From Tubulanus polymorphus (lineage: Eukaryota > Nemertea > Palaeonemertea > Tubulaniformes > Tubulanidae): 64,000 nucleotides of DNA. Both the position numbers and the translations under genes were made by a program. This document shows, piece after piece, positions 19,701 to 56,230 of the stretch (position 1 is the first letter of the stretch; the number at the start of each line of letters is the position of its first letter). The stretch covers positions 13,058,501-13,122,500 of the forward strand of contig NC_134031.1 of NCBI RefSeq assembly GCF_964204645.1, given 5' to 3'. A model generated the notes under the pieces. That model was not told where the DNA came from. It saw only the letters and a program-made list of their open reading frames with translations, and ran no database searches.

Positions 19701-22700
19701 TCAAAACGCGTAGTAAAAACGCGCATCACACTTTTCCTAATCAATAATGGTTGTCACAATCGATAGTGGCGCCCCGCACGGACATGAACATACCTACTCA
19801 CGCTGAGGCTGACTATCATTGCTATATATCACTTTTTTGATGTGTTACCTTTACTGGTTAATCTCAGCTCAAAGAAAATCCTACTAGATATATATGACAC
19901 AATATCAATGATGCAGTCAACAAAAATGTATATAAACTTCCTTTGTACATTTATTGATGATCCACAGACGCTAAACAAACTTTACTGATCAGACACGTGC
20001 CATATGCAGCGCGCGCCCTCGAAGATACTGATAGTAGGCTCCAAACACTGAGCTGCCAATCATTCTAAAGACCGCCGTTATCTTAGAAGTTGCCTACGCT
20101 CCAACTACTAGAACATTTCATGTATCCGATTTCACAACTTTGTAGGCACATCGTGATTAAGCTTCCCTTAAATTACGCATACGACAACGAAAAAAATTTA
20201 AGCAGGGTCGTAAAAACATTAGGCAGGGCGCTGATTTTTTAGCATGGCGGCATATAATTTTATGTTTATTATATTTACGGCATATAATAAAACAGCCCGT
20301 GGAGAACACTGTAAGGCTAGCTTATGTCGGAGTATAGCGTAATGGATACTGGCACAACTGGATTCATTGGTTTAGCAGTTAAAATCCCCAATTCTTCAAA
20401 GTAGGCAAAATTCCCCACCTTTGGAATGGAGTGAAACAGATACATACAACCTTAAGCCATTAAAACATTAACATTAAACAATAAATGATAGTAAAAACAC
20501 CAAAAATTGTCATACAGCAAAATCATTGGCGATCTATCCAAATTCAGAGAATATTGGGAAAAATCATAGGAAATGGTAGGTACTTGAAGAAATACTAACT
20601 CCCCCCACCTGCTATCCCAAAGGGCAATTGATAATCCACAATCAATAGCAGAGAAATGTGCACATGACTACCATAGATAAGGTAGAACTTGCTTAATTTG
20701 AATTTTTCAATCCGGATTTTCACTTAATTCAGATGAAATATTTGGTCTATTTAACCTGGAACCATGTAAACTATCATTCATAATTCGAATTTCATTTAAT
20801 TTGAAGAAATCTGGGCAGTGCCTGATAGTCATCCGAATTAATTGAGTTCTATTGTACAGACTTACATCACATCCAGATTCCCTCATTACTAATTCAACAG
20901 TTGACTCATCATCCAGAATTCCATTTGTTGAAGGCACACTATCTTGATGATCATACCCATTTGTATACATGTGCTCCGCAAATTTCTTCTTTTCGTTTTC
21001 ACTGATATCAACAGGATTCTGATTACAAAAAATACCACGCTATACTGTGATTTTTCATGATTTTAGTTTGATTTCAGCTGAAACTAAGCATGTGATATTT
21101 AGCATTTAGACGCAAAGCTCCACTGAGCAATCGTCCCATAGCAAAATTGCTAACTAGATAGATACCATGGCATTGTAACTTGAATCGCATGAGGCCAAGG
21201 CCAAAAATTGAGTGTCTTAGTCTATGAAATCACATTTATAATACCTTAAGTTTTATGTATGCAGGCGTTTCTGTATTGTCACCAATTCTGCGTACGCTGG
21301 AATAATGATCACCATTGTGGTAAGATATATGAAGTTCTCGACCTTTAGCATCTGTGGTACCTTGGATCTGGTGAAAGATTAAATACAAAACTTGTAGCTC
21401 ATATTTCCGTGTAAATAATGGTCAAATCAGATGCACAGATGATCATAGTAACTGAGCCACTCGCCAATTTTTCGTTGATAGATTTATATTTTAGATATTT
21501 GACCTTCGGTGCTCGCGTCTTCGTTGCAGAACAAGGATAATATTTCATACTGCGCCCTGCTATAAATTTGATTCATGGAGAACACTGATCTACTACATAC
21601 GATATATTTATTATTTGAGTTGCAATTGTTTCAGGCTTCGGTCAAATCTAAACTGTACCTACTACTGGTACAGATCCTAGCAATGATCAATAGTTCGGCA
21701 GTGGTTATTAATCCATGGGAGGCCTTCAACCCCATCCACTTATGCGATTTATTCTTATAAAAGCAACTATTGAAATTATGAAATGCTCCCTTGACATCAT
21801 CCTTGCAATTGGCCTTTTACATATCACAAGATGAGAATGGTTTCTATTTTCTAATGAGTTGTTGTTTTGGTAAGATTATCATGAAACTTGCCCTGTTTGC
21901 TGTCAATACTTGTTGTAGTGGTTTAAAGGAGCAGTTCAGTGGCGAGGATAGGTATCTTATAAAGGTTAGATAATGTGTGGACAGCGGATGTGTTGGTTGA
22001 CACCAAACAACTATCAATTTTCAGGTGGCTCAAACTGCTCTAAATGAATGAAACAAGTAGTTAGCGACATGAGGGACTCAGGACGTAATGATCAGCAGGT
22101 CATAACTGTGTTTGGCAATAATATTGTTGTGATTGGCCAAGACTTTTAGTTAGCCTTAAATCTTCCATAGGTGACTCAACCTTAATCGCCATAGGTGAAA
22201 ATTGTTGTTGAGCCGACCTCTGGCAAATAAAAAGTTAATGGGTAGATACGGGTATATATAATCTTCAGCCTTCCAAAATAACTGGATTCTGTCTACTGAC
22301 AAAGAGCCTATCGGCTTATATAGCTCCGCTGTGTGATTAGAAGAAATGGAAGCTGCATACCTAGGGGTGCCCCCTTTTGGCCAAATCCAAAAAGGGCTCT
22401 GTACTTTGTAGGTATTGGTCCATAGAACATTCATACCAAATTTGGACTTGATCTGATTAAAACTGTAGGACTAATAGCAATTTGAATGAAATAGAAACTC
22501 CACCCCCAGTGGCACCCCCTGGTGGACAAATAAAAAAAATGGCTCTGTAACTTCATAGGCCATGGTCCATAGAACATTCACACATAATTTGGAATTGATC
22601 TGATTATAACAGTAGGACTAGTAGCGATTTGAATAAACAGAAACTTCACCCCAAGGGGCGCCCCCGGGGGAAGAATCCAAAAAATGGCTCTGTAACTTTA

Positions 22701-25700
22701 TTGGGCTTGGTCCATAGAACATTGATACCAAATTTGGAATTGATCTGATTAAAACTGTAGGACTAGTAGCAATTTGAAGATATAGGAACTCCAACCCCAG
22801 GGGTGCCCCCTGGGGGACGAATCCAAAAAATGGCTCTGTAACTTGATAGGCCTAGGTCCATAGAAAATTCATACCAAATTTGGAATTGATCTGATTAAAA
22901 CTGTAGGACAGGTAGCGATTTGAAGAAATAGAAACTTTACCCCCAGGGGACGCCCATGGGGGACAAATCAAAACAAGAAGCCTGTCGGCTTATATAGCTC
23001 CGCTGTCTTTGTTGTGGCTTGGAGGATAGACTATCACATCAGTATCTATTTGAAACTAGATGTTCAGGGACATTATAGCCACTTGGAGAAGGGCCACAAT
23101 ACCAATAATCATACTAACATACTCTAAACTGACAAACTGGAGGAGTAGCGATTGAAAGGAAAATCTAAAAAAGGCCTAATTTGCATAATTTATGCAAAAT
23201 CAAAAATATGGCTCTATACTTTTGTAGGCACTCCCCAATAGATCATTCATATGAAGTTTGGTTGAAATCTACTGAAAACTGGAGTAGAAGTAGCAATTTA
23301 AGTGAAAATCTAAAAATAGCCCTAATTTGCATAATTTATGCAAAATCAAAAGTATGGCTCTATACTTTTGTAGGCACTCCCCCATACATCATTCGTACCA
23401 AGTTTGGTTGATATCTACTGAAAACTGAAGTAGAAGTAGCGATTTAAGTGAAAATCTAAAAATAGCCCTAATTTGCATAATTTATGCAAAATCAAAAATA
23501 TGGCTCTGTACTTTTGTAGGCACTCCCCCATAGATCATTCATACCAAGTTTGATTGAAATCCGCTGAAAATCGATGGAGGAGTAGCGATTTTAGTGAAAA
23601 TCTAAAAATAGCCCTAATTTGCATAATTTAAGCAAAATCAAAATTATGGCTCTGTACTTTTGTAGGCACTCCCCCATAGATCATTCATACCAAGTTTCAT
23701 CAAGATCCCATCAGAACTGTAGGACTAGTAGGGATATAAAGACAAGAAGCCTGTCGGCTTATATAGCTCTGCTGTCTTTGTTGTGACTTGGAGCATAGAC
23801 TATCACATCAGTATCTATTTGAAACTAGATGTTCAGGGACATTATAGCCACTTGGAGAAGGGCCACAATACCAATAATCATACTAACATACTCTAAACTG
23901 ACAAACTGTTGGAACTGAAGTCATAAGTGGAACAAACTGTAGTCCCCAAGTATAGGCACCAAGTGAAATTTATCAAAAATCTATGCAATTGCTTCGATAT
24001 AGAATGGCTCTATTCTTTTGTAGGCACTCCCCAATAGATCATTCATATGAAGTTTGGTTGAAATCTACTGAAAACTGGAGTAGAAGTAGCAATTTAAGTG
24101 AAAATCTAAAAATAGCCCTAATTTGCATAATTTATGCAAAATCAAAAGTATGGCTCTATACTTTTGTAGGCACTCCCCCATACATCATTCGTACCAAGTT
24201 TGGTTGATATCTACTGAAAACTGAAGTAGAAGTAGCGATTTAAGTGAAAATCTAAAAATAGCCCTAATTTGCATAATTTATGCAAAATCAAAAATATGGC
24301 TCTGTACTTTTGTAGGCACTCCCCCATAGATCATTCATACCAAGTTTGATTGAAATCCGCTGAAAATCGATGGAGGAGTAACGATTTTAGTGAAAATCTA
24401 AAAATAGCCCTAATTTGCATAATTTTTGCAAAATCAAAATTATGGCTCTGTACTTTTGTAGGCACTCCCCCATAGATCATTCATACCAAGTTTCATCAAG
24501 ATCCCATCAGAACTGTAGGACTAGTAGGGATATAAAGAAAAAGTTGACGCCGGACACCGAACACCGAACGGACGGACGGACGACGACGACGAACCCCCTA
24601 ACCCATCAGCTCTGCTGACCTTCGGTCACAGCGGAGCTAAAAAAGTTGACGCCGGACACCGAACACCGGACGGACGGACGACGATGACGAACCCCCTAAC
24701 CCATCAGCTCCGCTGACCTTCGGTCACAGCGGAGCTAAAAATGGCTCTGTAACTTTATAGGCCTTGGTTCATAGAACATTGATACCAAATTTGGAATTTA
24801 TCTGATTAAAACTGTAGGACTAGTACCGATTTGAAGGAAAAGTTGACAGACGAACAAACGAACGGACAGACGACGACGGCTCACCCCCTAACCCATTAGC
24901 TTCGCTGACCTTCAGTCACAGCGGAGCTAACGAGAAAGGATGGATGACAGATGAAAATTGAATCCAATAGTCACTGGGGGTTTGCCCAAGAGGGCTCAGA
25001 ACACTGAAGGTCAATAGTTTTTTTTAACAGCGAAAACAAAACTATACTTACTACCCATGGAGGAGATAGATATTGATGAATCACGATATTCACTTCAAGA
25101 AGACGAGAAAAGGCTACGATAGCATCGTTACCAGCATAGGTACCAGGTTTTTTCAATAACATTACTGAAAGAGAGTTGTGAAGGATTTCAACACAGTCAT
25201 CTTTAGCCTTAATTCTAGGATATTTTAGATGAAGAATAAGATTTCTTTCAAATACGGGGAAGCATTGACTTTTGAGCAGAAATGCGAAATTTTCATAGAT
25301 GTTGCCTTGCCTTGGGCTGATAGGACACTGGCTGATAGGACACTCTCTATCAGTAATGTCTGTCCACTAATAGATGTATACTATAGCTATTTTGCATTTT
25401 GTATTCATCAGAATTGAAATCCTGATTGAACGATAGTTCCGAAGATGCTATCCATTCATATTTTTGCTCCATTTTTATTAATTTCTTTTAAAAGTAATAT
25501 CAGAGAGTACATACTGTGTCTGTCAAATGAAATATCATCTTCGACGAAAGGTTCAAAATCGCGTCTATTATCGATCATATATTGCACCGTTTCCAGACGT
25601 TGTTTTAGATGATTGCGACAATGACCTTCTAGCTGATCATCCAGTGCTCGAAATAAACAGTTTCTGAAATAAACGAACAATCCAACAGATTAGTTATTGT

Positions 25701-26571: not shown

Positions 26572-26875
26572 ATCAGGCTAATCTTAACATCATTGGAAGA
26601 TATTTTCTGAAAAAAATCAAAACTCAACCTATTTTTGATATGTTTGGTAATAAGTAGCCCATAGAACCCACTTTATAGGCCTAGACAAATTCTAAAAAGA
26701 TTAAACAAGAATTTTATTGATCAGAAATTCCAAACAAAAGACATGCGCTCAGGACTCTTACTAGAGATCATGGTCAGGTGTGAATAAAATGATGTAAGCT
26801 AGGGGTACCGGGTATATATCGAGTTTTGAATTCTTGCGCGAAAAATGTTTTATATTCTCATGTGAGTAAACCAAA

Positions 26876-28022
26876 CTAGGGGTCCTGGGACACCATACCC
26901 ACTTGGGAAGTGGTTTCAAATGCTCAACAATCTAACAATTTCAATATTCAACGCCCCCTGGTGGCCATATACGAAAACCAATGACCTTGAAACTCACCAC
27001 AATCATAGAACATGTCATGACCTACAACTTTGCAATTGATCATGGTAACAAAATATGCCTAGGTACCAATTTAATAAGGAAATACTAACTAATTCTACTA
27101 TTCGACGCCCTCTGGTGACCATATGCAAAACCCAATGACCTTGAAACTCACCACAATCGTAGAACATGTCATGAACCACAACTTTGCAATTTATCATGGT
27201 AGCAAAATATGCCTAGGTACCGATATAATAGGGATAAACTAAGTTATTCTACTTTTTCAACGCCCCCTGGGGACCATATAGAATAACTTATGTCCTTAAA
27301 ACTCACCATAATCATAGACGATGTCATGAGCTACAACTTTGCAATTTATTGTGGTAACAAAATATTCTCAATATAATATAGAAATACTAACTTATTGTAT
27401 TATTCAACACCCCCTGGTGGCCATATACAAAAACCAATGACCTTGAAACTCACCAAAATCATAGTACACGTTATGAGCTACAACCTTCCAATTGATTGTT
27501 GTGACAAAATATGCTTAGGTATCAATAAAATGAGGAAAAACTTTTTCCCACCTACGAATGAGTACTGATGGCACCAAGATGGCCGCCAATTGCGTCATAA
27601 TTGGCTGATCAAAAATATCAGTCTCAGGTATAAAACATCCCTTTTTAAAGAATACCCATCAGCGATTGCAATGGAATATACCAAACCAGTAGGGAGCTAC
27701 AGGACTCAGAATTCGGATCAAAATTGACATTTTTGGGCACTAAAAAGGTCATAAGACGGCCATCTTGAGTCCAATCCACCCAATTTTTTCTTAAGCTGAT
27801 GGGCCCTTAGGGGTTCAAATATATACCAAAGATCAAGGTAATTGATCAAAGCGTCTTTAAAATTTCCCTCAAAAAGTTAAAAAATGTGTAAAAAGTGCTG
27901 ATTTTGGCGAACAACAATGGCTGCCAGTTGGCCATCTTGATTCTGACAGAGCCATCTCAAAACGGACTACAGACGAAAAGTGAATGCAATAGCCCACTGG
28001 GACTAAAGTCCCAAGTGGGCTT
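26876..28022 (-). mobile_element. Pearl-like element copy 2, near full length
   Basis: On the minus strand it starts with half of the AGCCCACTTGGGAC / GTCCCAAGTGGGCT hairpin (28022 end), has about 600 bp of unique flank, then four monomers spaced 148-155 bp (CCCCCTGGTGG-like words near 26953, 27106, 27261, 27408). It ends with a CCACTT-CCC-AAGTGG hairpin about 18 bases before a terminal CTAG followed by T. It lies between OTUD3 and the Harbinger transposon. Non-coding. Confidence 0.75.
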
Positions 28023-28185
28023 AAAACGTGTTTAATATTTATATTTTGATGATTTATATTGGGAAGCCGGGACTTGATTGAATTTGATTGAATCTAGTTT
28101 CACTTTCGAGATATCACATATGAACTGGATCGATAAAATGAACAAACGAATACTTCGATCCTAAATCATTCTCAATGTTACTCTT

Positions 28186-28535
28186 TAGCCCATTTGGGAC
28201 TTTAGTCCCAAATTGGCTATTGCATTTACTTTTCGTCTGTAGTCCGTTCTGAGATGCTTCAATGTAACTTTATATTTGGGTTACACATGTATCTACCCTA
28301 GACACATCTTCAGCCCAAAAACTGGCCCTGTCAGATTCAAGATGGCCGACTGGCATCCATTGTTGTTTGCCAAAATCAGCACTTTTTACACATTTCGAAG
28401 TTTTCGAGGGAAATTTTGAAATCGTTCGTACATATTTGTATCCCCCAAGGGCCCATCAGCATGAGATAAATTGGGTCGATCAGACTCAAGATGGCTGTCC
28501 TGTGACCTTTTTTGTGCCCAAAAATGACATGGTTT
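28186..28535 (+). mobile_element. Pearl-like element head fragment
   Basis: It begins with the hairpin (AGCCCATTTGGGACTTTAG, then GTCCCAAATTGGCT), CTTTTCGTCTGTAGTCCG and the unique flank, in the orientation opposite to its neighbour at 26876-28022. It stops near 28535 before any monomer. The two lie head to head, 164 bp apart. Confidence 0.7.
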
Positions 28536-29000
28536 ATATAGTAATAGGCTCAGCCTATGGCTGGCCTAAAAATCATCGTCAATTTTATTTCTTCTTTTTT
28601 AGTTTTCTCATTGGAGAATTCTATGTTTTATCAGTAATATATAAAAGCCTACTTGTAAATTCGACAGCAAATGTTGTACAATTCTGCTCGTGTTGTTTAC
28701 ATTAGTAGATCAAGATGACGTCACACTACATCGCTAAAATCCCCAAATACGGCATTAAATTGCCAATTTAGGCTTCATCAATAGCCTTCAAAAGCAGTGG
28801 CCACTTATGCTGGGTTACACACACGATTTTCTGTCGAGGAATCGAGCAACTCACAGTCGAGCACAACTCGACTCTCGACTAATTGAGAGAAATAAAACAT
28901 GCTCCTCGACTGAGTCGAGAGAAATCTAGCCAATCAATGTGCAGTAAACTCACGTACTTTTAGTTTTCCTTTCTGGTAAGAGAGGGCGATATATTTCAAC

Positions 29001-34074: not shown

Positions 34075-34078
<4 letters not shown>

Positions 34079-34121
<43 letters not shown>
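34079..34121. repeat. AT dinucleotide microsatellite
   Basis: About 21 uninterrupted AT units. Length is probably variable between individuals. Confidence 0.95.
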
Positions 34122-34122
<1 letters not shown>

Positions 34123-42945: not shown

Positions 42946-42980
42946 CTGTATTTCTAATTCTGACTTTCTGTCTAGCTTGT

Positions 42981-44198
42981 TAGCCCACTTGGGACTTTAG
43001 TCCCAGCGGGCTATTGCGTTCACTTTTCGTCTGTCGTCCGTCCGTCGGTCCGTAGACGGAATCCAGTTATTTTGGGAAGTTTAGTCTACCCTAGACACAT
43101 CTTCAGCCCAAAAACTGGCCCTCTCAGATTCAAGATGGCCGACTGGCAGCCATTGTTGTTCGTCAAAATCAGCACTTTTTACACTTTTTGAACTTTTTGA
43201 GGGTAATTTTGAAGACGCTTAAATCAATTACCTTGATCTTTCATATATATTTGAATCCCCCCAGGGCCCATCACCATAAGAAAAATTGGGTCGACCGGAC
43301 TCAAGATGGCCGTCCTATGACCTTTTTAGTGCCCAAAAATGTTAATTTTGGGCCAAATTCTGAGTCCTGTAACTCCCTACTGGTTTGCCATTTCTCATTG
43401 CAATTTTTGATGGGTATTCCTTGGAAAGGGTTGTTTTATACCTGAGCCAGGTATTTTTGATCGGCCAATTGTGATGCAATTGGCGGCCATCTTGGTATCA
43501 TCAGTACTCATTGGTAGGTGGGAAAAAGTTTTTCCACATTGTATTGATACCTAAGCATATTTTGTTACCATAATTAATTGCAAAGTTGTTGCTCATGACA
43601 TCATCTATGATTGTGGTGAGTTTTAAGGACATTAGTTATTCTATATGGTCACCAGGGGGCGTTGAATAGTAGAATAACTTAGTATTTCCTTATTAGATTG
43701 GTACCTAGGCATATTTTGTTACCATGATCAATTGCAAAGTTGTAGTTTATGACATGTTCTATGATTATGGTGAGTTTTAAGGTCATTGGGTTTTGAATAT
43801 GGTCACCAGGGGGGCGTTGAATAGTAGAATACTTAGTATTTCCATATTAAATTGGTAACGAGACATATTTTGTTATCATGATCAATTGCAAAGTTGTAGT
43901 TTATGACATGTTCTATGATTATGGTGAGTTTTAAGGTCATTGGGTTTTGAATATGGTCACCAGGGGGCGTTGAATAGTAGAATACTTAGTATTTCCATAT
44001 TAAATTGGTAACGAGACATATTTTGTTATCACAATCAATTACAAAATCATAGCTGCTGACATGTTCTATGATTGTGGTGAGGTTCAAGGTCATTGGTTTT
44101 TGTATATGGTCACCAGGTGGCGTTGAAAATTGAAATTGTTAGATTGTTGAGCATTGGAAACCACTTCCCAAGTGGGCATAGTGTCCCTGGACCCCTAG
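42981..44198 (+). mobile_element. Pearl-like element copy 3, full length
   Basis: Starts with the complete hairpin (AGCCCACTTGGGAC, loop, GTCCCAGCGGGCT), then CTTTTCGTCTGTCGTCCGTC with CCGT repeats, about 600 bp of unique flank, and four monomers whose CACCAGG words fall at 43651, 43805, 43959 and 44112 (154, 154, 153 bp). It ends with the CCACTT-CCC-AAGTGG hairpin and CTAG followed by T. Monomers two and three are almost identical, pointing to recent local amplification. It ends about 550 bp before the first DHX16 coding exon. Confidence 0.8.
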
Positions 44199-44203
44199 TT
44201 TTT

Positions 44204-44557: not shown

Positions 44558-44751
44558 TCCATTGAAAAGTTATGATATGTTTCTTCTGAGAATTGCTGTT
44601 CCAACATCTAGGGTAGTTGGTTTTCTATTCATAGTATTTCCATTGATTTTGGTACCTGTATATTTGTAGCCCATAACAGGTTCTATGATCATTATGAGTT
44701 TTGGGTTCATTAGTTTCTGTATACATTCTCTGACTTAACTTTATATCCACA

Positions 44752-47700
44752 GTGACTGATGCTTAGCCTACATCAAGCAACAAAAATGTCTCAGATAATA
44801 GAAACTTGGGTGAATGACAAACTGCATGATATTCTTGGTATATCTGACCGATACATTGGTCAGTATTTGATGAACTTGGCAACTAAGTCAGGGAGCAGCG
44901 ATGACTATATTGAAAAACTGCGTGACACAGGAACTGTGGAGATTGACCAAAACATGGTGAACTTTGCCAGAGAACTTTGGAATAAGGTAGACTGAAATAT
45001 ATTTTATCTAAGATTCTGCATGTACAGTATCATTCATTGTACAGCCGTATTCCTACTTACATATTCTAGGGCAATGTGATCAAATGGCAATTAAGAGCCT
45101 GCCTGTCTCACTGCTGATTTCATTGTACTGTATGTTAAACTCCCTTTGTGGTTTTATTAATTTCAGTAAATCATGTGATCTGGTTCTCATTAGTTTACAT
45201 AATTTTTCACTTTTTTAAATTTGAATCCATAATATTTATCTCAATTAGTTTTTATTGGAATTAGCTATTCTGAATGAAAAAATGTTTTAAGGCGTTTTAA
45301 CAAATTTCTATGAAAATTATGTAATTTTGTCATCCTTCATCATCACGCCAAAAAACACTTTTTTAATATATTTGCTTAAGTTGTATTTGGCCTGGTATGG
45401 TTTAAATCATGTTCATCATCACACTTGCCTAAAGTCACTCAAGCAAACCCTTAAGTAGTTATGGGCTATTCCAATTCTAAAAATGACCATAAACTCTCCT
45501 GAAATGCACTGTATGTGATCTTTTGGATGTACAATGTACTGTATTTTATCTATTTCTGGTCCACCCATTAACTTAATCAGAACATTTCACTACTTTCTTG
45601 CTAAGTGCCAACCCAATTTTAGGCAATTGTTTGAATTTGCAGGATTTATAAGTATTTCTGATAAGAGGAATATCTATTATTCCACAGGTTCCACACAAAT
45701 CAGTGACCGAGAGACCAGCAAGGCAGCTGGAGCGCTTTGCTCTGGAACAGCAGAAGAAAAATGGAAGTTATACACTGGTATCAGATGAGGAAGAGGAAGA
45801 CATGATTACTGGAAATACGGTATTTAAATTACTTAGAAAAACAGTATAATTATGAGGCAAGAGTTGTCATGATAAGTAGCGAATGAGGAGTGCCCAAATC
45901 TATTGATGGTGCCTCCAAAATTAATTGTTTGGATTAGTATATAGGCCTACAGTCACACATCAGTGATAAGAGAGTTATTGAGGTACATCGAGTATAGCAT
46001 TATATTAAATATTTTGGTATCCAAGTAAAGTTGTAGTAGTGCGTGGAGTTTAATGGTCAGCTATGGCCTCAGTCAAGGCATGTCCAGGGGAGGTACATGT
46101 GTTATTGGGCGACTTCTAGTTTGAAATGTTGTGTCTTGGAAATCATGGATTCATCTTATTCTTCCCAAATTCTTCTTCAGTCAAAAAGGTTGAAAGGAAA
46201 ATTCAACCGTAAGCGACATCTTCGGGAAAAGAAAGATGATAGCGATGACAGTAGCGATGGGTAAGTGTTGAATATTGAATAGACACAATATTTCCCTTTA
46301 CTACTTGAATAATGCAGTAATTCCACTTTTGGGTAGCTCACATTTTCCTATTGTGGATATTTACTGTGTTTGGTATGGAACTCTGAAGAGTGCAAGTTTT
46401 CATGTATCTGTGCTGGAGATATACGTACCTGGTTATTCTAAATCTATAATGGACTCAATACCGGATATCGACAAATTCAAGTTCTGGAATAATCGGTTGA
46501 TGGCGCTAGTCAGAACTGGAAATTGGAACCTAAATCCACCATGTTCTAGTTCATTTGCAATAAGAATCTCACGCTTCAAGTTTTTAGTTAGCGATATTTT
46601 ACTTACTATACATCGTCAAGCGTAATCCTTTAAGTTGATAATTTGTTGGATTCTATAAAACCTCACTTCAAACGCCAGAGATCGCTAAAAATGTCAAAAC
46701 ATTACCAAAGATCAAGAATTTAGTGATCACACTCGAAGCAGCTAACAGAAGTAAAGACTGGTGCCGGGTGCCATCACTTTGTTGTTGAGTTCAAGACTCT
46801 AAGGTGAATTTATTGCTGGCTACACTGATGAATATGAAATAATATTAAGAAATAGAATTGATTTAAGAAGGACTACAATCGTAGATCCATATAGAAATAT
46901 GAAAAGTACCAGGACTCGAACCGACTTTCAAAATTGGGTCGTCAAGTGCTGCCACCATGTGATACATGGCAACCAGTCTTTACATCGTCAGTTGTCGCAA
47001 AATGTTTTTTGATAATTTTAGGACATTTATAGTGATTTCTAGCCTTTGCAGTGAGGTTTTATCATATCCAACTTAACGGTAGGATATCATATTTGAAGGA
47101 TTAATCATGACGATACATAGTCAGTAAAAAACGCTAATTAAAAACTTGAAGCAAGAGATCTTCATTGCAAATGAACTAAAACATTTAGGTTCCAATTTCC
47201 GGTTATGACTAGCGCCATCAAACGAGTAATTCCAGAACTTGAATTTGTCGATATCAAGTATTGTCAAAATAGGTCTAACATTAGCTTCTTAATGGTTCCT
47301 TGACCCATATTTGATTTTCTGGTTGGTTTTCCACTTCATTGGGTGAAATGAGGAAGTGACGATATAGCAAATTGGGAATTAAGGAGTGAAATGTGTGGTT
47401 GTGCTCATTAACACCAGATTTCTCTTGATTGAAATACAGTAGAACTGGTGTAAGTCAGAGAGCTTTAAGTTGGAAAATCGGCAAAGTCGGCTGAAATTCC
47501 AAGGTCCCGATGTTTTCAGTTCATTTTCCTATCAAAATCTGCCTCAAAGTCGGATTCTGGAAATCGTAAATTCGGCTAAGTCAGCTAATGTTTCGAAAGT
47601 TTCACAACAATGCATTTTTAGCCCACTTGGGACTGTAGTCCAGAGAGGGCTATTGCGTTCACTTTTCGTCAGTCGTCCGTCGGTAAACGGAATCCAGTTA

Positions 47701-50700
47701 TTTTGGGAAGTTTTGAAGACGCTTCAAGGGAATGTCTTGATATTGGGTTCATACATGTATCTACCCTAGAAATATCTTCAGCCCAAAATTTGGCCCGGTC
47801 AGATTCAAGATGGCCGACTGGCAGCCATTGTTGTTTGCCAAAATCAGCACTTTTTACACTTTTTTTAAGTTTTCAAGGGAAGTTTTGGAGACGCTTTAAT
47901 CAATTATCCTGATCTTTCATGAATATTTGTATCTCCCAAGGGCCCATCAGCATGAGAAAAATTGGGTCCTGTGACCTTTTTTGTGCCAAAAAATGTCAAT
48001 TTTGGCCTAAATTTTCAGTCATGTATCTTCCTAATGGTTTGCATTTTTTCATTGCAATTTATGGTGGGTATTTTATGAAAAGGGATCTTTAATGCATGTG
48101 ACAGGTATTTTTTTGATCACACAATTGGTGGCCATCTTAGTGTCATCAGTACTCTTTCATAGGTGGATAAAGGTTTTTTGAAGTAAATAACAGCAGGTTT
48201 GAACTTATAGCCTTGATATTCAATTATTATTAGCACAGTCATATGATAAATCGCCTCACATGGAATTTGGGATCATCCACTTCTTTGTTCTTGTCACCAG
48301 GGAGAGTTAAATATTAAAAGATAAACAATTTGTCTACTTATATTGGTACCTATGCACATGTTGTAACTACAATCAATTGCAAGCTTGTAGCTCATGGCAT
48401 GGTTTTGGTGAGTTTCAAGGTCATTGAGCTTTGTATATGGCCACCAGGGGGTTGAATAGTAGGATAACTTAGTATTTCCATATTGTATTTGTACCTATGC
48501 ATATTTTGTAACTACAATCAATTGCAAACTAGTAGCTCTGGCATATTCTATGATTGTGGTGAGTTTCAAGTTATTGGTTTTTGTACATGGTCACCAGGGG
48601 GTGTTGTATAGTACAATTACTTAGTATTTCCATATTATATTGGTACCTAAGCATATTTTCTTACCGCAATCAATTACAAAGTGGTAGCTCATTGCATGTT
48701 CTATGAGCTTGGTGAGTTTCAAGGTATTTGTTATTTGTATATGGTCACACCAGGGGGCATTGGATAGTAGGATAACTTGGTATTTCCATATGGTTTGTTG
48801 AAATTAGTGGAAATAATTAATTACTAATTGATGCAAATAGATAGAGGGCGCCACTATATGGTTTCTTTGTAAAAAACATGTGTTGAGAAAAAAGAAGATG
48901 GTGGAAGAATAAAAAATCAGATTCTGTAAAAAAAACGATTTAGTTTTATGGTTTATTATGGATTAGTCAGAACATTAATTGGTCCCACCGAACCGGATTA
49001 TAGAAGCAGAATGGCAGATGCTAACTCAGAAGATAAAAAACAGTTGTTAGACTTAGAAAAAACGCTAAGAAAACCGTAAGACTTAACTTCAACCGATCAA
49101 AAAATCGATTGTTAGACCAGGTACAAGAGGCAAAGTCAGTTAGAATCGAAATCACTCAAAAGAGGCCTGGACGATTTAGATGGAACGTTTATGGCGATAT
49201 CAGAACTAACGACAGACCTTTCTGGGATCTACATTCAACTTGAAGAAGACAGTAAATCCAATAAATTAGAAGAATGGTTTCGATTAAATAGAAAAAGACT
49301 ACTCCCAAGTATCAGGTACTGCAACAAAACTCTTATGCCAAAGAACTCCAGTCGTCGTGAACCATGAAGTACTGCTTGCACCGGCAACAATGAATCGAGA
49401 AGAAGCGGAGATATCTTCGTCTTCAATTCCCGCCCATCGACACTATGATATGACGAGAGATTTAAAACGTTTGCCATTACAGAAATATTATGGCGACCAG
49501 ATACTGTATGAAGACTGGAAAGACTCCTTCTTAACGTTGATGAACAACCATGATCAGCAAAGAGAAAAATGTTACGACTCAAAAGCTGCCTGGAGGGAGA
49601 AACAAAAGATATAGTACGAGGATTAGATAACAGTGAAGCCGCCTACCAGACAGCTATGGATCGATTAGAACGGGAGTATGGAGGAAAACGCCGAATGACC
49701 GCGAAGCACCTGGAGGCGATTCGAGAAACGAAACCGATTCAGCCGAACAATACGAAAGAACTCTGAAAGTTTGTGAACCTGATAGAAACGCCATAGTAGC
49801 ACTTAGTAATCACGACCATTACAAGGAACTCAGAGATGGCATGTTACATCAAACTGCGAAAAGTAAACTACCAAAATCGATGTTGATCAACGATAAACGT
49901 TGGATACGTGATTCCAATAAAGAAGATATCTTAACGAATTTGAGAGACTGGTTGATTGACGAATTCCGAATCCTATCAGAGACTACAGAAGATCTAGAAG
50001 GAATAAACAAAGTCTATGAAAGTCAAACTATCAACTCAAAAAACTGGCGTCATCAGAAAGCGTTTACTAAGAGCACTTTGTCATACGCCTCAACTTGTGT
50101 CAAGTGTAAACACTCTCACCGTTTATTTGAATGTTCGTCCTTCAAAGAAATGGAAGTAAATGATCGGTGGCAATTTGCAAAAGACCATCATCTCTGTTTC
50201 CGTTGTTTAAACTCGGGACACTCAGGAAAAGCATGCTTTTTTACTCGAAGGTGCAATGTTAACGGATGTAAAAGTAACCACAATGCTTTGCTTCATGACG
50301 AGTCTAGGTCGAATAGCTTTGAGCAGAACAAGCCGAGGATTAGAGAAGAATCGTCTACCGTCTCAGATCATCCGGAAACACTTCACGTCACGGAGGGGGA
50401 TACCTCAGATTCCGTTCATTCGCTTAGTGACTCTCCTACTCCGAACATTTCGCTACATACGTTGCCGGTGATAGTGTCGAACGGCAAAGAAAAACTCGAA
50501 ATTGTAGCTGTTTTAGATGACTGCAGTACGGCTTGCTATATATCAGAAGAGATCGCCATGAAGCTCCATCTCGAAGGTCAAATAAGCGAACTTAATGTCG
50601 GCACAATCGGATCGATGAAACAGACATTCAGTACTATGAACGTAAATTTCACTATCGGAAGCTTATTCGGTCGTTAAAGTAAGAATATCAACGCGTATAC

Positions 50701-53700
50701 CGTTAAACGTGTGTCCGGATATCGTCCGGCGATTAATTGGAACGATTCGAAACAGAAATTCCGTCGCATGCAGGATATCCAATTCCCGGTCGTAAGAAAT
50801 AATGCGAAAATCGAATTACTGATTTGTTTAGACGCAGCAGATTTACATAGATGTCTTGAAGAACGAGTTGGAGGAGAAAATCAGCCGATTGCGCGCCGAA
50901 CACCTCTCGGTTGGACCGTTGTCGGAAAAACAAGCGATAAAACTGTAATCACGAAACATGCGTATGCATATTTTACCAGTTCTATGGATATTCAACTTAC
51001 CGAACAGTTACGTCAGTTTTAGGACTAAGATTCGATTGGAATCCGAAAAGACGACAATAAACCATTATTCACTCCGGAGGAAAAGAAAGTGGTCGATCAG
51101 GTCGCGAAGTCTAGATGCTTCAAAGATAGTCGCTATGAAGTCGGAATTCCCTGGAAGGATAATGAACTCTCTTGCATAATCTCAAAAAATCATTTCAAAA
51201 TCTTGAACGTGGGTACATCCGCAAAGTGCCGTCAACTGAAATTACTTCTTCCGAATGGTATTTGCGACACTTTCCAGTGGTTAAGTTACAGAGATCTACC
51301 TCCAAAGTGCGAATCGTATTCAACGCGGCTGCAAAGTACATCAGAAAATGTTTAAATGATGCGATCTATGCCGGTCTGAAGTTACATAATGAACTTATAG
51401 ATGTGTTGATTCGTTTTCGTCGTTTTGCGGTCGCTCTTGTCGGAGACATCAGCGAGATGTTTCTCCAAGTTGGTATTCGCGAAGAGGAACGTCCGTTTCA
51501 CCGTTTCTTGTGGCGAAACATGGACATTACGAAAGAGCCAGAGGTGTATGAGTTTTTGCGTTTAACCTTCGGTAACACCTCGTCTCTATACTTAGCACAG
51601 GACATCGTTCAGTATCACGCGAAGTCCCATAAAGAGGATTTTCCGCTTGCGTTGGAAGCAGTTGAAAATGCAATATACATGGACGATACGTTAGAATCCG
51701 TTACATCGAGCAAAATCAGAATTAAATTGCGCCGCTAATTATCGGACCTATTTGAATCTACGGGATTCAAAATTCATAAATTTTGTAGTAATGACGTGGA
51801 TGTTCTCATCGATGTTCAGGAATGCGACCGGGCTGCGGACATAAGTTTAGCAGAGGGAATCTTACCAGTCATGAAAACTCTTGGAATTGTCTGGTGAGCG
51901 AACACCGACACGTTTACTTTCAACATTGAGCCACCCAGTGATGTCGCCATGACGAAACGTGCCGTTTTAAGCAAGGTAGCTACGATATTTGATCCGTTAC
52001 AGATTCTAGCACCCGTTACCGTCCGCGCAAAAATGCTGTTGCAGCAGTCCTGGTTACTAGGACTTGAATGGGACCAGCCATTCCCTGAAGAGTTGGCTGC
52101 CGAGTGGAAAAGCTGGTTTCGTGAACTCATCGATGTAAAAGATGTGACCTTGCCAAGATGGCTTGGGCTTAGTTTGTCTAATAGGGTGACATTACACACG
52201 TTCGGTGATGCATCAATGTCAGCCTACGCTGCCGTTAGTTATTCTTGTTGTGAGACAGCAGAAGGAGTAAAAGTCACAATGATTGCCGCGAAAAACCCGC
52301 GTATCGCCAACCCATGCATTGTCGATTCTGAGATTGGAACTACTCGCCGCTCTTATTGGGAAAATGTACTGTTTTGGATTCGAGGTGAAAGTCGTAAGTA
52401 CAAACCATTCGTTGCGCACCGAGTTGGTGAAATTCAGGAAACGACTAACCCAGATCAGTGGCGACACGTGCCCACTGAGGTCAACCCCGCTGATTTAGCT
52501 ACCCGTGGTATGACCGTTCAGGATATTGTATCAAATAAGACGTGGTTGTATGGACCGGAATTCTTATTAGCGGAACCGTCCGAATGGCCAAAATGCGAAC
52601 TATCACCGGTGTCGACTGCGGATTTGGAAATCCGTAAAGATAAAATAGTGTGCGTGATTGCTGTTGCAGAACCGTGGTTAGATCCGAATCGTTACTCCGA
52701 TTTAGTGAAGTTGAAACGTGTAACTGCTTGGTGTCTTCGATATGCGCATATCTTAAAAGTGCGAGCGTCGTTATGTTGTCGTGGTAACCGTCATTCCATG
52801 TTGAAGGTTGCTGAAACCGATTGTAAAAAATGCGTCGAATTGAAAAAGTCAATTCAAAAATTGCCGTTGCATCATTTACTTGTCTCGAGTTGCACTTGAG
52901 TGCTGCCTTCGACACCGTAGATCATGAGGTCCTGTTAGATCGTATGCGTTACTATCTTGGTATAGGTGGTTCAGCCTTGGATTGGTTCCGCTCCTACCTT
53001 TCTGACCGAATTCTTCAAGTCCAGATAAATGGTGTTAACTCTGAACCTCATAATGTACACTTTGGAGTACCGCAGGGCTCAGTACTTGGCCCTCTACTTT
53101 TTCTCGTATATGTTCTGCCCTTAGGGCAGTTAATACAATCGCACAATATCAATAGGCATGGCTTTGCTGATGATAAGCAGGTGTACAAATTAATAACATC
53201 AATTCGTGATTCGGGTGCTGTAACATCACAACTTGCAAAGGTGGAATTGTGTCTTGCGGCTGTGTACAATTGGTACACTGCAAACTTCCTGAAGGCCAAT
53301 GCCACTAAAACTGAGGTTTTATTGTTGGGAACCAGCCATAGGCTTAAGTTAGTTTCCATAGATCATCTGACAGTTGCTGGCACTCGCGTTGCTCTTAGTA
53401 CTAAATCTGTGCGGAATCTTGGTGTCATATTTAACTGTGAGCTCTCTATGAGAGATCATGTTCAATTACTATTAAGGAGTGGATACTTCCACAGAGACTG
53501 GAGAATTGTGCAGCACGACTTGTTTGTCTCGTATCGAAGTATGATCACATAACACCAGTTCTTAAAGACCTTCATTGGCTGCCAGTCAAAGCAAGAATTG
53601 AGTTCAAAATTCTTCTAATTACATTTAAAGCATTAACAGGATGTGCACCAGTTTACATCAGTGAACTCATTCAGTTTTATGCTCCTGTGCGTCAACTACG

Positions 53701-56230
53701 TTCATCTTCACACCACAGAAACTTTCTGAACCAACATTTCACCTTTCTAATTTTGGTGGTAGAGTTTTTTCGCGGATTGCTCCTAGACTTTGGAATAACT
53801 ATATCGACCCTCCACATGCTGTGTTAAATATGTCACAACCTCAGTTCAAAACGTTCATTAAAACTAAACTGTTCTGTGCTTACTTCAACTCGTAATCCAC
53901 CCGGAGGAGCGCATTTGAACTTTATTACTATGGAAAACTGCGCTATATAAATGACTATTATTATTATTATTATTACTATTATTATTGTCTCGGAGTTAAA
54001 CGCTGCCGAAAATTTGTGGATTCGAAAAGCACAACGTGATGTGTTCAGTCAGGAAATAAGCAACTTGGAAAAGTTCAAATCCGTAGCGACGAGCAGTAAA
54101 ATATTGAAGTTGAATCCGAAAAATTGATGAAAATGGCGTCTTACGTGCGAATGGTCGATTAGTGCATGCGGATTATTTCCCTCGCGATGCACGTGAACTG
54201 ATCATCCTCCCACGTCATAAGCAAATAAATCGTTTGTTCATTGCGTTATATCATCGTGATCTCAAACATAATGGAGGCGTTAATCACGTTTTATCGAATT
54301 TGAATTTGAGATTCTGGATCGTTCATGGACGCGAAGCTGTAAAGGAATACGAGAACAAGCCTAGTCGATTTAAGCTTAAACGTGCGAAAGGAGCAAAGCA
54401 GATTATGGCTCCTATTCTGAAAATCCGAACGGATGCCGTTTCGTGAAGCGCGTTTACTCATTGCGGTGTGGACTATGGTGGACCATATTACACCAAACAA
54501 GATCGCGGAAGGATCCAGACGAAACGTTATATGTGTTTATTTACTTGTCTCGCTACTCGAGCGGTACATATCGAAATGACTTGGTCTTTAGACGCAGATT
54601 CGTTGTTAGAGGCCTTTTCGCGAATGACGTACCAATTTCGTCGCCGCCGAAAGAGAATTGCGAGAATTAATTGCGTCGTTCGATCAGAAAAAAATTGCTA
54701 GTAAACTTGCGGACAAAGGGATTCAATGGAAACTCAATCCGCCAGGCGCGCCTCATTTGTTCGAAGCCATGAATAAAAGTGCGAAACGTGCCGTCAGTGG
54801 TATATTAGTAAAAAGTGACGTCTGCGTCGTAAATGGAATAACGTCGAAACGGATTTTAAAATGGGCAATGTGGTCGTCCGTATAGACAAGAATACTCCAC
54901 GTGGTCAATGGCCATTGGGTAGAGTTACCGAAATCTATCCCGGTAGCGATGGTCATGTTCGTGTCATTAGAGTGAAAATCGGTTCCAAGGACTATGTTCG
55001 CCCGATATCAAGATTATATGTTATCGTTCTACGTGTATTATAGAGACTTTTCATATTGTCTTTAATCCATTATTCGATTTGTCGACTCAGTATTTGTAAG
55101 GTTCCTCCTTCCAGGAGGGGGAAATGGTTAGTTGAAATTAGTGGAAATAATTAATTACTAATTGGTGCATATAGTTAGAGGGCGCCACTATATGGTTTCT
55201 GTGTAAAAAACACGTGTTGAGAAAAAAGAAGGTGGAAGAATAAAATATCAGATTCTGTAAAAAAACGATTTAGTTTTATAGTTTATTACCGATTAGTCAC
55301 CATATTATATTGGTACCTGTACATATTTTGTAACTGCAATCGACAGGTTGTAGCTCTTGGCATATTCTAGAATTGTGGTGAGTTTCAAGGTCATTGAGTT
55401 CTTTCTATGGTCACCAGGGGGCATTAAATATTGAAACTGTTAGAATGTTGAGCATATGAAACCTTTTCCCAAGTTAGCATGGTGTCCCTGGACCCCTAGT
55501 TCAATCTCTTAGTCTGTCGGCTAATCTCATTTTTTCAAAAAGATCGTCACTGGTGGGCAGCATCTATCATATACTGATAGATCAATTTTTCTGTCCACCG
55601 ACACATGTTAAGCACATCTTTACAATAGCAGTCGGTTATAGAATAGAGTATTGACCCATGTCACTCAGTAGTTAGGGTTTAGGGGCTTAAATATGTAGTT
55701 AACTTGAATTTTTTTTAGAAAACCCCCAGACTCCGAATAACTCATAATTGGAATTTTCTGTGAAGTCGGACATTTTTCCGTTGTCCCAACGTGTCCAACT
55801 TATGCTAGTTCTACGTAACATATTTTGTTACCAGAATTAACTGAAAAACAACTCAATTCTAAAGTTGTAGTCTCTGATAAGTTCTATGATTGTGGTGAGC
55901 TTAGCTCACTAGTTTTGCTTTTTTTCACCAGGAGGCATTGAATTTTGAAATTATCAGCTTGTCAATCATTTCACCATGGTGTCCCTGAAATCACAGGTTA
56001 ATATCTTATTTTGGTCTCAATTTAGTGAAACTACTGTGATCTATAAAAAAGGAGGTCGACTGCAGAAAGTGATTAAACAAGAGGACAAAACCTCTGAATC
56101 AGAGGATGAGTATGAACGTCAAGAAAAAAAACGCATTGAAGATTTGAAAGAACGTGATGAATTTGCTACAAGAATTAAAGAGCGAGATAAAGAAAAGACT
56201 CGAAATATTGTAGAAAAATCTGATAAAAAG
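44752..56230 (+). CDS. DHX16: DHX16/PRP2 DEAH-box splicing helicase, N-terminal exons 1-4 (gene continues past window)
   Basis: Coding exons: to 44986 (ATG at 44759 or 44786; acceptor at 44751, so a 5' UTR intron exists), 45688-45819, 46181-46260, 56026-56230. All have AG/GT borders and compatible phases. The 206 residues from 44786 match the N-terminal region of DHX16: ETWVNDKLHDILGISDRY, LRDTGTVEIDQNMVNFARELW, ERPARQLERFALEQQKKNGSY, acidic DEEEED, basic RKRHLREKK, then SESEDEYERQEKKRIEDL and RDKEKTRNIVEKSDKK. DHX16 is the ATPase that remodels the spliceosome before the first catalytic step. The DEAH helicase core is not in the window: 56231-64000 shows no further exon, so intron 4 exceeds 7.7 kb or the gene is interrupted. 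I prefer the ATG at 44786, which aligns with the family start. Confidence 0.92.
46437..47275. repeat. Long palindrome (fold-back) in DHX16 intron 3
   Basis: Arms 46437-46690 and 47030-47275 are inverted copies at roughly 85 percent identity (shared ATCGACAAATTCAAGTTCTG, GAAATTGGAACCTAAAT). The core holds a further inverted pair with tRNA-like words (GTAAAGACTGGT at both sides; GGTTCGAGTCCTGG on the minus strand near 46920). Transcripts could form a hairpin of over 250 bp. It may be an inverted SINE pair or a fold-back transposon. Confidence 0.75.
48791..48969 (+). repeat. 5' LTR of the BEL/Pao element
   Basis: Starts TGGTTTGTTGAAATTAG and ends TTAGTCA. It contains AGAGGGCGCCACTATATGG and an AATAAAAAATCAG segment that could hold the polyadenylation signal. 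Pairs with 55125-55299. Confidence 0.92.
48980..48997 (+). promoter_or_regulatory. Primer-binding site of the BEL/Pao element
   Basis: TGGTCCCACCGAACCGGA, ten bases after the 5' LTR, is complementary to a tRNA 3' end (complement ends GGGACCA and contains the GGTTCG of a T loop). The tRNA identity was not determined. Confidence 0.75.
49011..50400 (+). pseudogene. BEL/Pao gag region, frameshifted
   Basis: An ATG at 49011 opens a frame that stops at 49079. Gag continues in other frames (49357-49614, 49569-49766, 49841 onward). The nucleic-acid-binding end at 50095-50290 has the BEL/Pao zinc-knuckle pattern CVKCKHSHRLFEC, HHLCFRCLNSGHSGKAC, CNVNGCKSNHNALLH. Structural role: packaging of the element RNA. 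Confidence 0.82.
50440..50676 (+). pseudogene. BEL/Pao protease region
   Basis: VIVSNGKEKLEIVAVLDDCST resembles the retroelement aspartic protease start, in which an aspartate lies in a hydrophobic strand; the usual third residue (G or S) is Cys here. It sits in frame with gag, and the frame ends at 50676, before reverse transcriptase. Confidence 0.65.
51172..51738 (+). pseudogene. BEL/Pao reverse transcriptase core
   Basis: SKVRIVFNAAAKY, ALVGDISEMFLQVGI (first catalytic Asp), RFLWRN and the YMDD site near 51676-51687 mark fingers and palm. In the BEL/Pao group the phrase FLQVGI...RFLW is typical. The frame is disrupted on both sides. Confidence 0.88.
51949..52889 (+). pseudogene. BEL/Pao connection and RNase H region
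   Basis: KRAVLSKVATIFDPLQILAP marks the BEL/Pao connection. THTFGDASMSAYAAVSY-type sequence (reads LHTFGDASMSAYAAV near 52195) carries the first RNase H aspartate, and HRVGEIQETTNPDQWRHVPT and NPADLATRG follow. A deletion appears to have shortened the middle of RNase H near 52350. The end is cut by the LINE inserted at about 52892. Confidence 0.85.
52892..53985 (+). mobile_element. CR1-group LINE nested in the BEL/Pao element
   Basis: The 5'-truncated copy begins in the palm (LSAAFDTVDHEVLL) and continues with FGVPQGSVLGPLLF, a FADD catalytic site near 53170 and NLGVIFNCELSM, then goes out of frame near 53480 (LHWLPVKARIEFKIL readable in another frame). It ends in an ATT repeat (53957-53985). 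The host sequence TTGTCTCGAGTT before it (52880-52891) is duplicated after it as TTGTCTCGGAGTT (53986-53998), the target-site duplication. Confidence 0.92.
53999..55043 (+). pseudogene. BEL/Pao integrase region, frameshifted
   Basis: After the LINE, NAAENLWIRKAQRDVF resumes the BEL/Pao sequence. The zinc-binding segment (HRDLKHNGGVNHVL), the catalytic core start (VDYGGPYYTKQDRGR, TCLATRAVHIEM) and the C-terminal GQWPLGRVTEIYPGSDG are all recognisable but lie in different frames with stops. The core is shortened. Confidence 0.85.
55111..55124 (+). promoter_or_regulatory. Polypurine tract of the BEL/Pao element
   Basis: The purine run AGGAGGGGGAAA directly precedes the TG of the 3' LTR, where plus-strand DNA synthesis is primed. 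Confidence 0.8.
55125..55299 (+). repeat. 3' LTR of the BEL/Pao element
   Basis: Starts TGGTTAGTTGAAATTAG and ends TTAGTCA. It matches the 5' LTR except for scattered substitutions and a few missing bases (for example GAAGGTGG versus GAAGATGGTGG). Confidence 0.92.
55800..55990 (+). mobile_element. Diverged pearl-like element tail next to DHX16 exon 4
   Basis: One monomer remnant (ACATATTTTGTTACCAG, TCTATGATTGTGGTGAG, TTCACCAGGAGGCATTGAA) is followed by CCATGGTGTCCCTG, which matches the family tail CATGGTGTCCCTGGACCCCTAG, but the terminal CTAG is lost. The DHX16 exon 4 acceptor lies about 35 bp downstream. Confidence 0.6.

Follow-up and report, generated by a model that had tools for sequence, protein, structure and literature searches.

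Two tandem-core repeat families of the nemertean Tubulanus polymorphus very probably belong to the Helentron-associated elements, one subfamily having an array-bearing autonomous partner

A window of 64,000 nucleotides from the nemertean Tubulanus polymorphus (contig NC_134031.1, positions 13,058,501 to 13,122,500; G000:C7:13058501-13122500 in the numbering used here, where C-numbers such as C3, C2 and C14 denote contigs of the 267.8-Mb, 77-contig assembly and L-numbers denote genomic loci fetched from it) holds two repeat families, at the places where a preliminary description of the stretch had located them. Both have a terminal hairpin, a CCGT-type microsatellite, a tandem core with monomers of 154 bp (family 1) or 146 bp (family 2) and fixed ends, and both are dispersed. 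In line with the earlier claim, comparison of the window with itself at E ≤ 1e-6 gave no similarity between them besides a CTCF-like motif. We hold with high confidence that both are HINEs (Helentron-associated interspersed elements), non-autonomous passengers of Helentrons, the endonuclease-encoding rolling-circle transposons. Their interpretation as local versions of the pearl/HINE system finds support, for family 2, in an autonomous Helentron with the same termini and a tandem array of one of its monomer types, 2b, and for family 1, for which no partner was found, in its structure and in a T-run target without duplication beyond TT.

Of the 40 scored places through which family 1 was sampled, 32, counting the window copy, extend to both query ends; 20 of them were fetched, and the fetched copies are thus selected as full-length. 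In the orientation used in the literature, and with hyphens marking the borders of the element, a copy begins with TTTTT-AGCCCACTTGGGACTTTAGTCCCAGCGGGCT, continues with a CCGT/CGTC microsatellite, a unique stretch of about 480 bp and the four monomers, and ends in CCACTTCCCAAGTGGGCATGGTGTCCCTGGACCCCTAG-TT, an end pair that can be shortened to AGCCCACTTGGGAC..CTAG. All 20 fetched copies displayed the termini TTTTT-AGCCCACTTGGGACTTTAGTCCCAGCGGGCT...CCCAAGTGGGCATGGTGTCCCTGGACCCCTAG-TT, with both end sequences next to unrelated flanks; five or six Ts precede the 5′ end in 18/20, and TT follows CTAG in 19/20. The copies are 1232-1296 bp long, with a median pairwise identity of 95.0% and a maximum of 98.7%. 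The subterminal inverted repeat, GCCCACTTGGGA, is present at both ends and measures 12 bp, the threshold being at least 11 bp. When genome pattern counts were compared with a reversed-pattern control, the 37-mer of the 5′ end had 1,396 matches at up to two mismatches and the control had none. The exact family-1 ends listed on C1 fall, by eye, between 8.07 and 28.84 Mb of its 32.06 Mb.

Within the window, the stretch given as 47619-55499 in the preliminary description is family 1, but it represents one copy interrupted at 48791-55299 by a long terminal repeat (LTR) retrotransposon, which by reading has TG..CA ends, LTRs of about 195 bp and a 5-bp duplication, CCATA. A non-LTR-like piece ending in a TAT microsatellite lies inside this retrotransposon at about 52880-53990. 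The stretches at 6235-7068 and 28186-28535 likewise belong to family 1, in the form of truncated copies. The earlier count of two to five monomers does not fit this family: four monomer matches were found in 22/22 full-length copies (the 20 fetched ones, 42982-44198 and 26876-28021), and the lower numbers in the window stem from truncated or interrupted copies. This sample is biased, its members having been chosen by their overall match to a four-monomer query. Among 100 listed places of the 4,676 exact occurrences of the motif core in the genome (see below), motifs spaced about 154 bp apart did not form runs longer than four. With four monomers in every full-length copy examined and no longer run among the listed motifs, the idea that array expansion seeds satellites is not supported.

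The family-2 stretch, described as 22160-24935, is indeed family 2, though it consists of three nested minus-strand elements and not one. At 22300-24928, HINE 3 lies within HINE 2, which lies within HINE 1 (Table 1). The family has two related monomer types, 2a and 2b, which are about 66% alike over 410 bp. Its termini are TTTTT-AGCTCCGCTGTGACCGAAGGTCAGCGGAGCT...CACAGCGGAGCTATATAAGCCGATAGGCTCCTTG, with CCTTG as the 3′ terminus, and the microsatellite is of the same kind as in family 1. For this family 16 loci were fetched by their match to the window's 3′ end and scanned together with the window, at a tolerance of up to 5-6 errors; the 3′ end was found in 17/17 loci and the 5′ hairpin in 11/17 (10/16 fetched loci and the window). 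Coincidence of the termini between copies, which the preliminary description had named as a check on its reading, was therefore observed in both families. The 31-mer of the 5′ hairpin has 33 exact genome matches, against 0 for the reversed control. The subterminal inverted repeats AGCTCCGCTGTG / CACAGCGGAGCT measure 12 bp in HINE 1 and 11 bp in HINE 2 and in an element on contig C3, and in HINE 3 they are identical at 10/11 positions, with one mismatch; a palindrome, AGCCGATAGGCT, is found 5 nt before the 3′ end. The 2a model gave three to seven monomer matches per family-2 locus, nested and neighbouring copies included, and one match in L046, a piece of C3 with 2b monomers. A family-2-like 3′ end (CAGCGGAGCTATCACAGCTGACAGGCTGCTTG, five mismatches in the scored part) at L048:1229-1260, upstream of the L037 Helentron, would belong to another related element.

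The search for an autonomous element with the same termini gave one for family 2b and, in the loci read, none for family 1. One of the 33 family-2 hairpins, at C3:12177313, lies 5.2 kb before a match to Helitron_like_N, and it opens a 13,566-bp element (C3:12177313-12190878). TTTTTT precedes the 5′ hairpin of this element, and its 3′ end, CAGCGGAGCTTTATAAGCCGACAGGCTTCTTG, runs into TT. A 146-bp 2b array (Tandem Repeats Finder (TRF) period 146, 5.3 copies) lies just within the 5′ terminus. Its open frame of 2,009 aa matches DUF6570 (1.4e-10), Helitron_like_N (4.6e-27) and PIF1 (7.3e-27) in Pfam and includes a papain-like-protease-type region with a weak match to Herpes_teg_N (1.3e-6). The Rep motif, EFQHRGSAHIH, has the Helentron-type S after RG. 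The helicase end and the endonuclease region follow in two shifted frames, and the last endonuclease piece is 27% identical over 150 aa (blastp E 6e-12, two-sequence search) to the endonuclease end of the protein encoded at L040, whose endonuclease matches Exo_endo_phos_2 (6.4e-11, Pfam). The C3 partner combines a Helentron-type Rep motif with a C-terminal AP-endonuclease region, the latter frameshifted.

The short 2b elements of the window match this element at both of its ends. HINE 3 aligns with it over 657 bp of the 5′ part at 96.7% (array included) and over the last 265 bp at 98.9%, with a 3-bp overlap. HINE 2 aligns over 617 bp of the 5′ part at 99.2% and over the last 168 bp at 98.8%, with an 11-bp overlap, and the 5′ end that precedes the 617 bp matches at 83% where the length of the microsatellite differs. 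At the 3′ end the agreement of 98.8-98.9% over the last 168-265 bp exceeds a threshold of at least 80% over 60 bp. The deletion junctions are at about 764/13416 and 842/13514 in locus coordinates; they differ and neither is a sub-deletion of the other, indicating that HINE 2 and HINE 3 are two separate deletions. Since the autonomous C3 element carries the array itself, the 2b tandem core came from the autonomous element and was inherited from the parent rather than acquired afterwards.

Comparison with paralogous empty sites revealed, in family 1 as well as in family 2, that the elements enter T-runs and that occupied sites have two additional Ts, with nothing else duplicated. The family-1 copy L020 sits in a reverse-transcriptase-like repeat, and four element-free paralogues match its joined flanks at 94-98%; the occupied site reads T5-element-TT, and 3/4 of the empty paralogues have T5. 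For family 2, the occupied site of L025 has seven Ts versus five in an 89% paralogue in L051, and the insertion of HINE 3 into HINE 2 has seven versus five in the closest uninterrupted copies (HINE 3 itself, L030 and the C3 element; 94-98%).

The genome search returned 58 Rep matches, and the check for a family-1 partner covered seven Helentron loci (L037-L043) and one locus on C2. Three of the seven, L040, L041 and L043 (on C1, C8 and C12), are copies of one element and are 99.3-99.7% identical over about 10 kb, a near-identity that suggests recent Helentron activity. L037 has the Rep motif QMRGSPHVH (from translation) and an Exo_endo_phos match (1.2e-6); because both L037 and L040 carry endonuclease domains, the genome has other endonuclease-bearing Helentrons. 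Tandem repeats occur at or near the start of the Rep frames of L038 (1286-1821, TRF period 126 bp) and L037 (1250-1807, 54-bp offsets), those of L038 being in frame and encoding a repeated KQKARAIPEKKAAE-type stretch. Near one L040-type copy, L049:2794-3640 is repeat-like, with an end, ..TTGAGGCTTTGCCTCAATCTAG-TTTTT, that by eye resembles a Helentron 3′ end. At the C2 locus there are two family-1 copies, of which the second begins in a T-run within a monomer of the first; they are apparently nested, as judged without the far side of the outer copy. The second copy is followed by about 5 kb of other sequence and then by a degenerate family-1-like 3′ end (7/32 mismatches). In this L053-L054 segment (C2:17674087-17679170) a NOV_C (NO VEIN C-terminal) fragment (1.3e-14) is placed between the family-1 5′ part with its array and the degenerate 3′ end, possibly a case of gene-fragment capture, and matching family-1 places on C14 suggest that the segment was duplicated there twice.

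A number of observations weigh against the assignment to HINEs. Neither the stretches read of L037-L043 (pieces of about 9.9 kb, some with added flanks) nor the C2 locus provided a partner for family 1, the former being devoid of family-1 ends. Of lesser weight, no listed family-1 end lies within 20 kb upstream on the same strand of 13 of the 58 Rep matches, in a comparison by eye of 100 listed exact places of the 1,396 (C1, and C2 up to 13.3 Mb) with the Rep matches there. The 3′ end of HINE 1 matches the C3 element over 34 bp only, at 88%, which falls short of at least 80% over 60 bp; 2a is therefore a related subfamily that shares the subterminal repeat with the C3 element and is without a proven partner. 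In the C3 element, the separate endonuclease pieces were not recognized as an endonuclease by Pfam, and genome matches to the Rep region do not exceed 69% identity, save for a single stretch of 59 bp at 88%. Together with the frameshifted endonuclease region, this suggests that the C3 copy is probably not itself active. A downstream open reading frame of 355 aa with a zinc-ribbon-like CxxC pair, which may be an RPA-like Helentron protein, had no Pfam match above the cut-off and no PDB match.

The target sites and termini add further points of this kind. The fourth paralogue of the L020 site, L057, has T7 and not T5. At that place (C10:8156776-8157055) T7 would shift the reading frame, and it may stem from slippage or be the TT footprint that an excision left. 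Seven Ts are also present in L022, a 2a copy without interruption that is 76% like the site of HINE 3, so the number of Ts varies without insertion. The family-1 join L017 was compared with a 76% paralogue and gave no clear result, and for HINE 2 in HINE 1 reading of the sequence gave nine Ts versus about six, approximately three extra. Within a homopolymer, moreover, an element-borne TT and a 2-bp TT duplication are indistinguishable. The strongest 3′ palindrome of family 1 overlaps the subterminal repeat itself, and the 3′ subterminal repeats stop 21-22 nt from the terminus, versus 38-60 nt for the mite HINEs in PMC4067079. Structure and target nevertheless lead us to regard family 1, jointly with family 2, as very probably a HINE, with a partner that we presume to exist.

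Many of the monomers contain the CTCF-like motif. Using a JASPAR-type CTCF matrix and counting scores of at least 15 as strong, we detected it in 89/95 family-1, 31/51 2a and 0/16 2b monomers. The family-1 motif is GGTCACCAGGGGGCGTTGA, and many 2a monomers hold CCACCAGGGGGCGC- or CCCCCAGGGGGCGC-like stretches. At 24004-24500 of the window, the place of the GC-rich CTCF-like palindrome of 2a is occupied in 2b by the octamer-like palindrome TTTGCATAATTTATGCAAA. Of the 19 window sites scoring at least 15, 16 lie inside the 7,765 HINE bases. The human CTCF consensus CCASYAGRKGGCRS, as printed in PMC6746451, gave 21 window sites at up to two mismatches, 14 of them in HINEs (7,748 bp), where 200 permuted consensuses gave a median of 5 and a maximum of 14; at up to one mismatch there were 4 window sites, 3 of them in HINEs.

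The 12-mer core CACCAGGGGGCG occurs exactly 4,676 times in the genome and its reversed control 4 times. Exact family-1 flanks surround 2,749 of these cores, and the excess by itself is no evidence of function because it mainly reflects the copy number of family 1. Canonical CCACCAGGGGGCGC has 64 genome occurrences, many of them, by eye, near contig (chromosome) ends. In 207,833 bases comprising the window and loci not chosen for HINEs we found 29 matches at a score of at least 14. Eight of these are outside the window: one site in three copies of one Helentron, three sites in L049 and one each in L039 and L055. The L049 sites, of CCACCAGGGG type, lie in a stretch that by eye resembles diverged repeats of about 130 bp and was not called by TRF. 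A CTCF orthologue of the host is encoded at C3:3430379-3431720; its zinc-finger stretches share 62% identity (116 aa) and 52% (155 aa) with the CTCF query, and the recognition helices of its fingers 3-5 (TSGELVRH, SVELSKLKRH and DTYKLKRH) are nearly unchanged by eye. This orthologue points to a bilaterian host, CTCF not being known outside the bilaterians; a search for COX1 gave no match from which to read a mitochondrial code. Open-access literature searches, judged by titles and abstract starts, returned no report of CTCF motifs in Helentron or HINE arrays. CTCF is not mentioned in the main text of PMC12628747 or PMC8268682, and it did not turn up in passages of PMC7492417, where no search aimed at CTCF was made.

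The coordinates of the elements and of example motifs are collected in Table 1. Inverted, partly collinear copies of another repeat are present at 11061-12852 and 56259-58737 of the window, with 79-93% identity in pieces.

Table 1. Positions in the window of family-1 and family-2 elements, named HINEs as argued in the text, and of CTCF-like motifs
Feature	Position	Strand	Remarks
Full-length family-1 HINE	42982..44198	+	5′ hairpin, CCGT microsatellite, ~480-bp unique region, four 154-bp monomers, 3′ ..CTAG-TT
Full-length family-1 HINE	26876..28021	-	Four monomers
Family-1 HINE split in its tandem core by an LTR retrotransposon	47620..55499	+	HINE parts 47620-48790 and 55305-55499
Family-1 copy, 3′-truncated	6218..7067	-	Without microsatellite; two monomers
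Family-1 5′ fragment	28187..28530	+	Head-to-head with the 26876-28021 copy
Old family-1 fragment	55800..55990	+	Partial monomer and degenerate 3′ end
HINE 1, family 2a	22300..24928	-	Pieces 24928-24737 and 22973-22300; 2a monomers; 3′ end CAGCGGAGCTATATAAGCCGATAGGCTCTTTG
HINE 2, family 2b	22974..24736	-	Pieces 24736-24639 and 23742-22974; in T-run of a 2a monomer of HINE 1
HINE 3, family 2b	23743..24638	-	In TCAACTTTTTC run of HINE 2
CTCF-like motif, family-1 monomer (example)	43646..43664	+	TGGTCACCAGGGGGCGTTG
Further family-1 CTCF-like motifs	43954, 44107	+	
Further family-1 CTCF-like motifs	26949, 27103, 27258, 27405	-	
CTCF-like motif, 2a monomer (example)	22510..22528	-	TGTCCACCAGGGGGTGCCA; others at 22365, 22801

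In the mechanism that we propose, the Rep/helicase/endonuclease of an autonomous element would recognize the 5′ repeat and hairpin together with the 3′ inverted copy and its palindrome. The DNA between both ends would be copied through a single-stranded or circular intermediate, and the copy would be inserted into a T-run, converting T5 to T5-element-TT. With the 2b tandem core forming part of the autonomous element's own 5′ region, short HINEs would arise by internal deletions that retain the 5′ hairpin and the microsatellite and fuse the array to the 3′ terminal region. Such HINEs could then multiply in trans, sometimes landing in T-runs of their own kind. Rolling-circle copying and action in trans are suggested by analogy with known systems; 2a may share this origin, and family 1 may have an unseen partner.

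Other origins have to be weighed against this one. The head-to-tail arrangement of 146-154-bp monomers would also fit scattered pieces, or seeds, of an ordinary satellite that has no fixed ends, but both ends recur in the 20 fetched family-1 copies and in 32/40 scored places, the number of monomers is four in all 22 full-length copies, and empty sites exist. A satellite without fixed ends is already refuted by the fixed ends, and we accord this origin next to no probability. MITEs (miniature inverted-repeat transposable elements) moved by a cut-and-paste transposase, the class in which pearl elements were first placed, would likewise be short, high-copy and non-coding with subterminal inverted repeats, and the two extra Ts are readable as a TT duplication. 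However, the 2b partner, a Rep/helicase element, shares the array and both ends, which already contradicts this origin for family 2b, and the ends are asymmetric, the hairpin and microsatellite being on one side only. We regard MITEs as a very improbable source. For family 1 alone, the CTAG end, preceded by a hairpin 19 nt upstream, raises the question of a canonical (CTRR-ended) Helitron or a proto-Helentron, and the preliminary description had indeed called it a Helitron-like terminus. Helitron_like_N matches of 184-199 bits, possibly from canonical Helitrons, are also present in the genome. The 5′ end of a canonical Helitron is TC, its target is A/T and its 3′ end is CTRR, and as a candidate it was rejected for both families: family 1 starts TT-AGCC and sits in T5/TT, and family 2 ends in CCTTG. 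Ending in CTAG is not enough to class family 1 as a canonical Helitron, given that it inserts in T-runs and has no 5′ TC; its 5′ hairpin, accompanied by inverted subterminal repeats, also speaks against this. PMC4067079 describes a proto-Helentron that has TT at the 5′ and CTAG at the 3′ end, but that element inserts between A and T, whereas family 1 inserts in a T-run (T5..TT). We therefore consider either origin unlikely for family 1 and retain the assignment to HINEs.

The CTCF-like motif in turn may be a coincidence, or a GC-rich palindrome that acts as a hairpin in a single-stranded copying intermediate, an explanation to which we give an even chance. In 2a the motif is embedded in a near-perfect palindrome, CCCCCAGGGGGCGCCCCTGGGGG, and its columns are not the best conserved of the monomer, and 2b has another palindrome at that place and is never CTCF-like. 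Among TRF arrays with periods of 90-220 bp, the five that belong to neither family (L038, L039, L048, L055 and window 41421) had no site above 12, nor did three 2b arrays (L046, window 23128 and 24004) or the two 5′ ends paired at 98 bp at 24538. In the old family-1 array at 48338-48791 the TRF unit also scores below 12, although single monomers there reach 18.0, 16.5 and 13.2. Family 1 fits this explanation less well. Its motif is not palindromic, and its consensus (typed with five Gs) scores 20.6, a value reached by 1/2000 dinucleotide shuffles and 0/2000 column-permuted matrices. Within the family-1 monomer the motif also ranks first in conservation among 15-mers, if narrowly (0.964 versus a mean of 0.906), and CTATGATTGTGGTGAGTTT comes close to the conservation of the 19-mer of the motif; since the copies are related, such figures serve as description only. 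It is possible, if doubtful, that Helentron derivatives have seeded the genome with directional CTCF-site arrays at nucleosome spacing and that CTCF binding profits the element, in which case at least two monomer lineages without other detected similarity would have gained the motif and the element would hand the host ready-made boundaries. Such a role draws on about 1,400 family-1 5′ ends and on the four monomers, facing one way at 154-bp spacing, of every full-length copy examined. If CTCF bound, the profit to the element might be open, positioned chromatin or replication. The 2b core is carried by the autonomous copy and is without the motif, which speaks against a general need for it.

The families resemble several known systems. 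In PMC4067079, which defines Helentrons, HINEs and their family rules, HINE/DINE-1 elements likewise have palindromic or inverted-repeat-paired subterminal inverted repeats of about 11 bp or more, a TT target and variable element-borne Ts, and are likewise deletion derivatives of a Rep/helicase/endonuclease element. Unlike in those elements, the tandem array described here lies in the 5′ region of the autonomous element. The closest functional precedent is provided by the Caenorhabditis Helitrons with heat-shock elements described in PMC6927752, in which a rolling-circle transposon likewise spreads repeated host-factor motifs; HSF-1 binding was shown for them, whereas CTCF binding is here predicted only. 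Should CTCF bind the motif, this would be a case of a rolling-circle transposon distributing arrays of several CTCF sites, all in one orientation, over the genome of an invertebrate.

PMC7492417 describes the pearl elements of bivalves as short arrays of core repeats of about 160 bp, up to six, which were later re-categorized as non-autonomous Helentrons; the likeness to the families reported here is one of described structure. The Cg_HINE elements of Crassostrea gigas in the same paper have, as here, a 5′ subterminal inverted repeat with a complementary inverted repeat, a GTCC-type microsatellite, short arrays of 140-180-bp monomers, a 3′ subterminal inverted repeat with a palindrome, a T-rich/TT target, no target-site duplication and integration into other repeats. 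In contrast to Cg_HINE, the monomers here measure 146 and 154 bp, many of them with a CTCF-like motif, and family 2b has an autonomous partner that itself carries the array, whereas according to that paper no autonomous Helentron could be related to the oyster elements. The link left open for the oyster HINEs is now direct: a pearl-type element with a nucleosome-sized core has been traced to an array-bearing autonomous Helentron, and two different deletion junctions show how the short forms arise. By comparison with known HINEs, the new points are thus the partner carrying the array and the CTCF-like motif.

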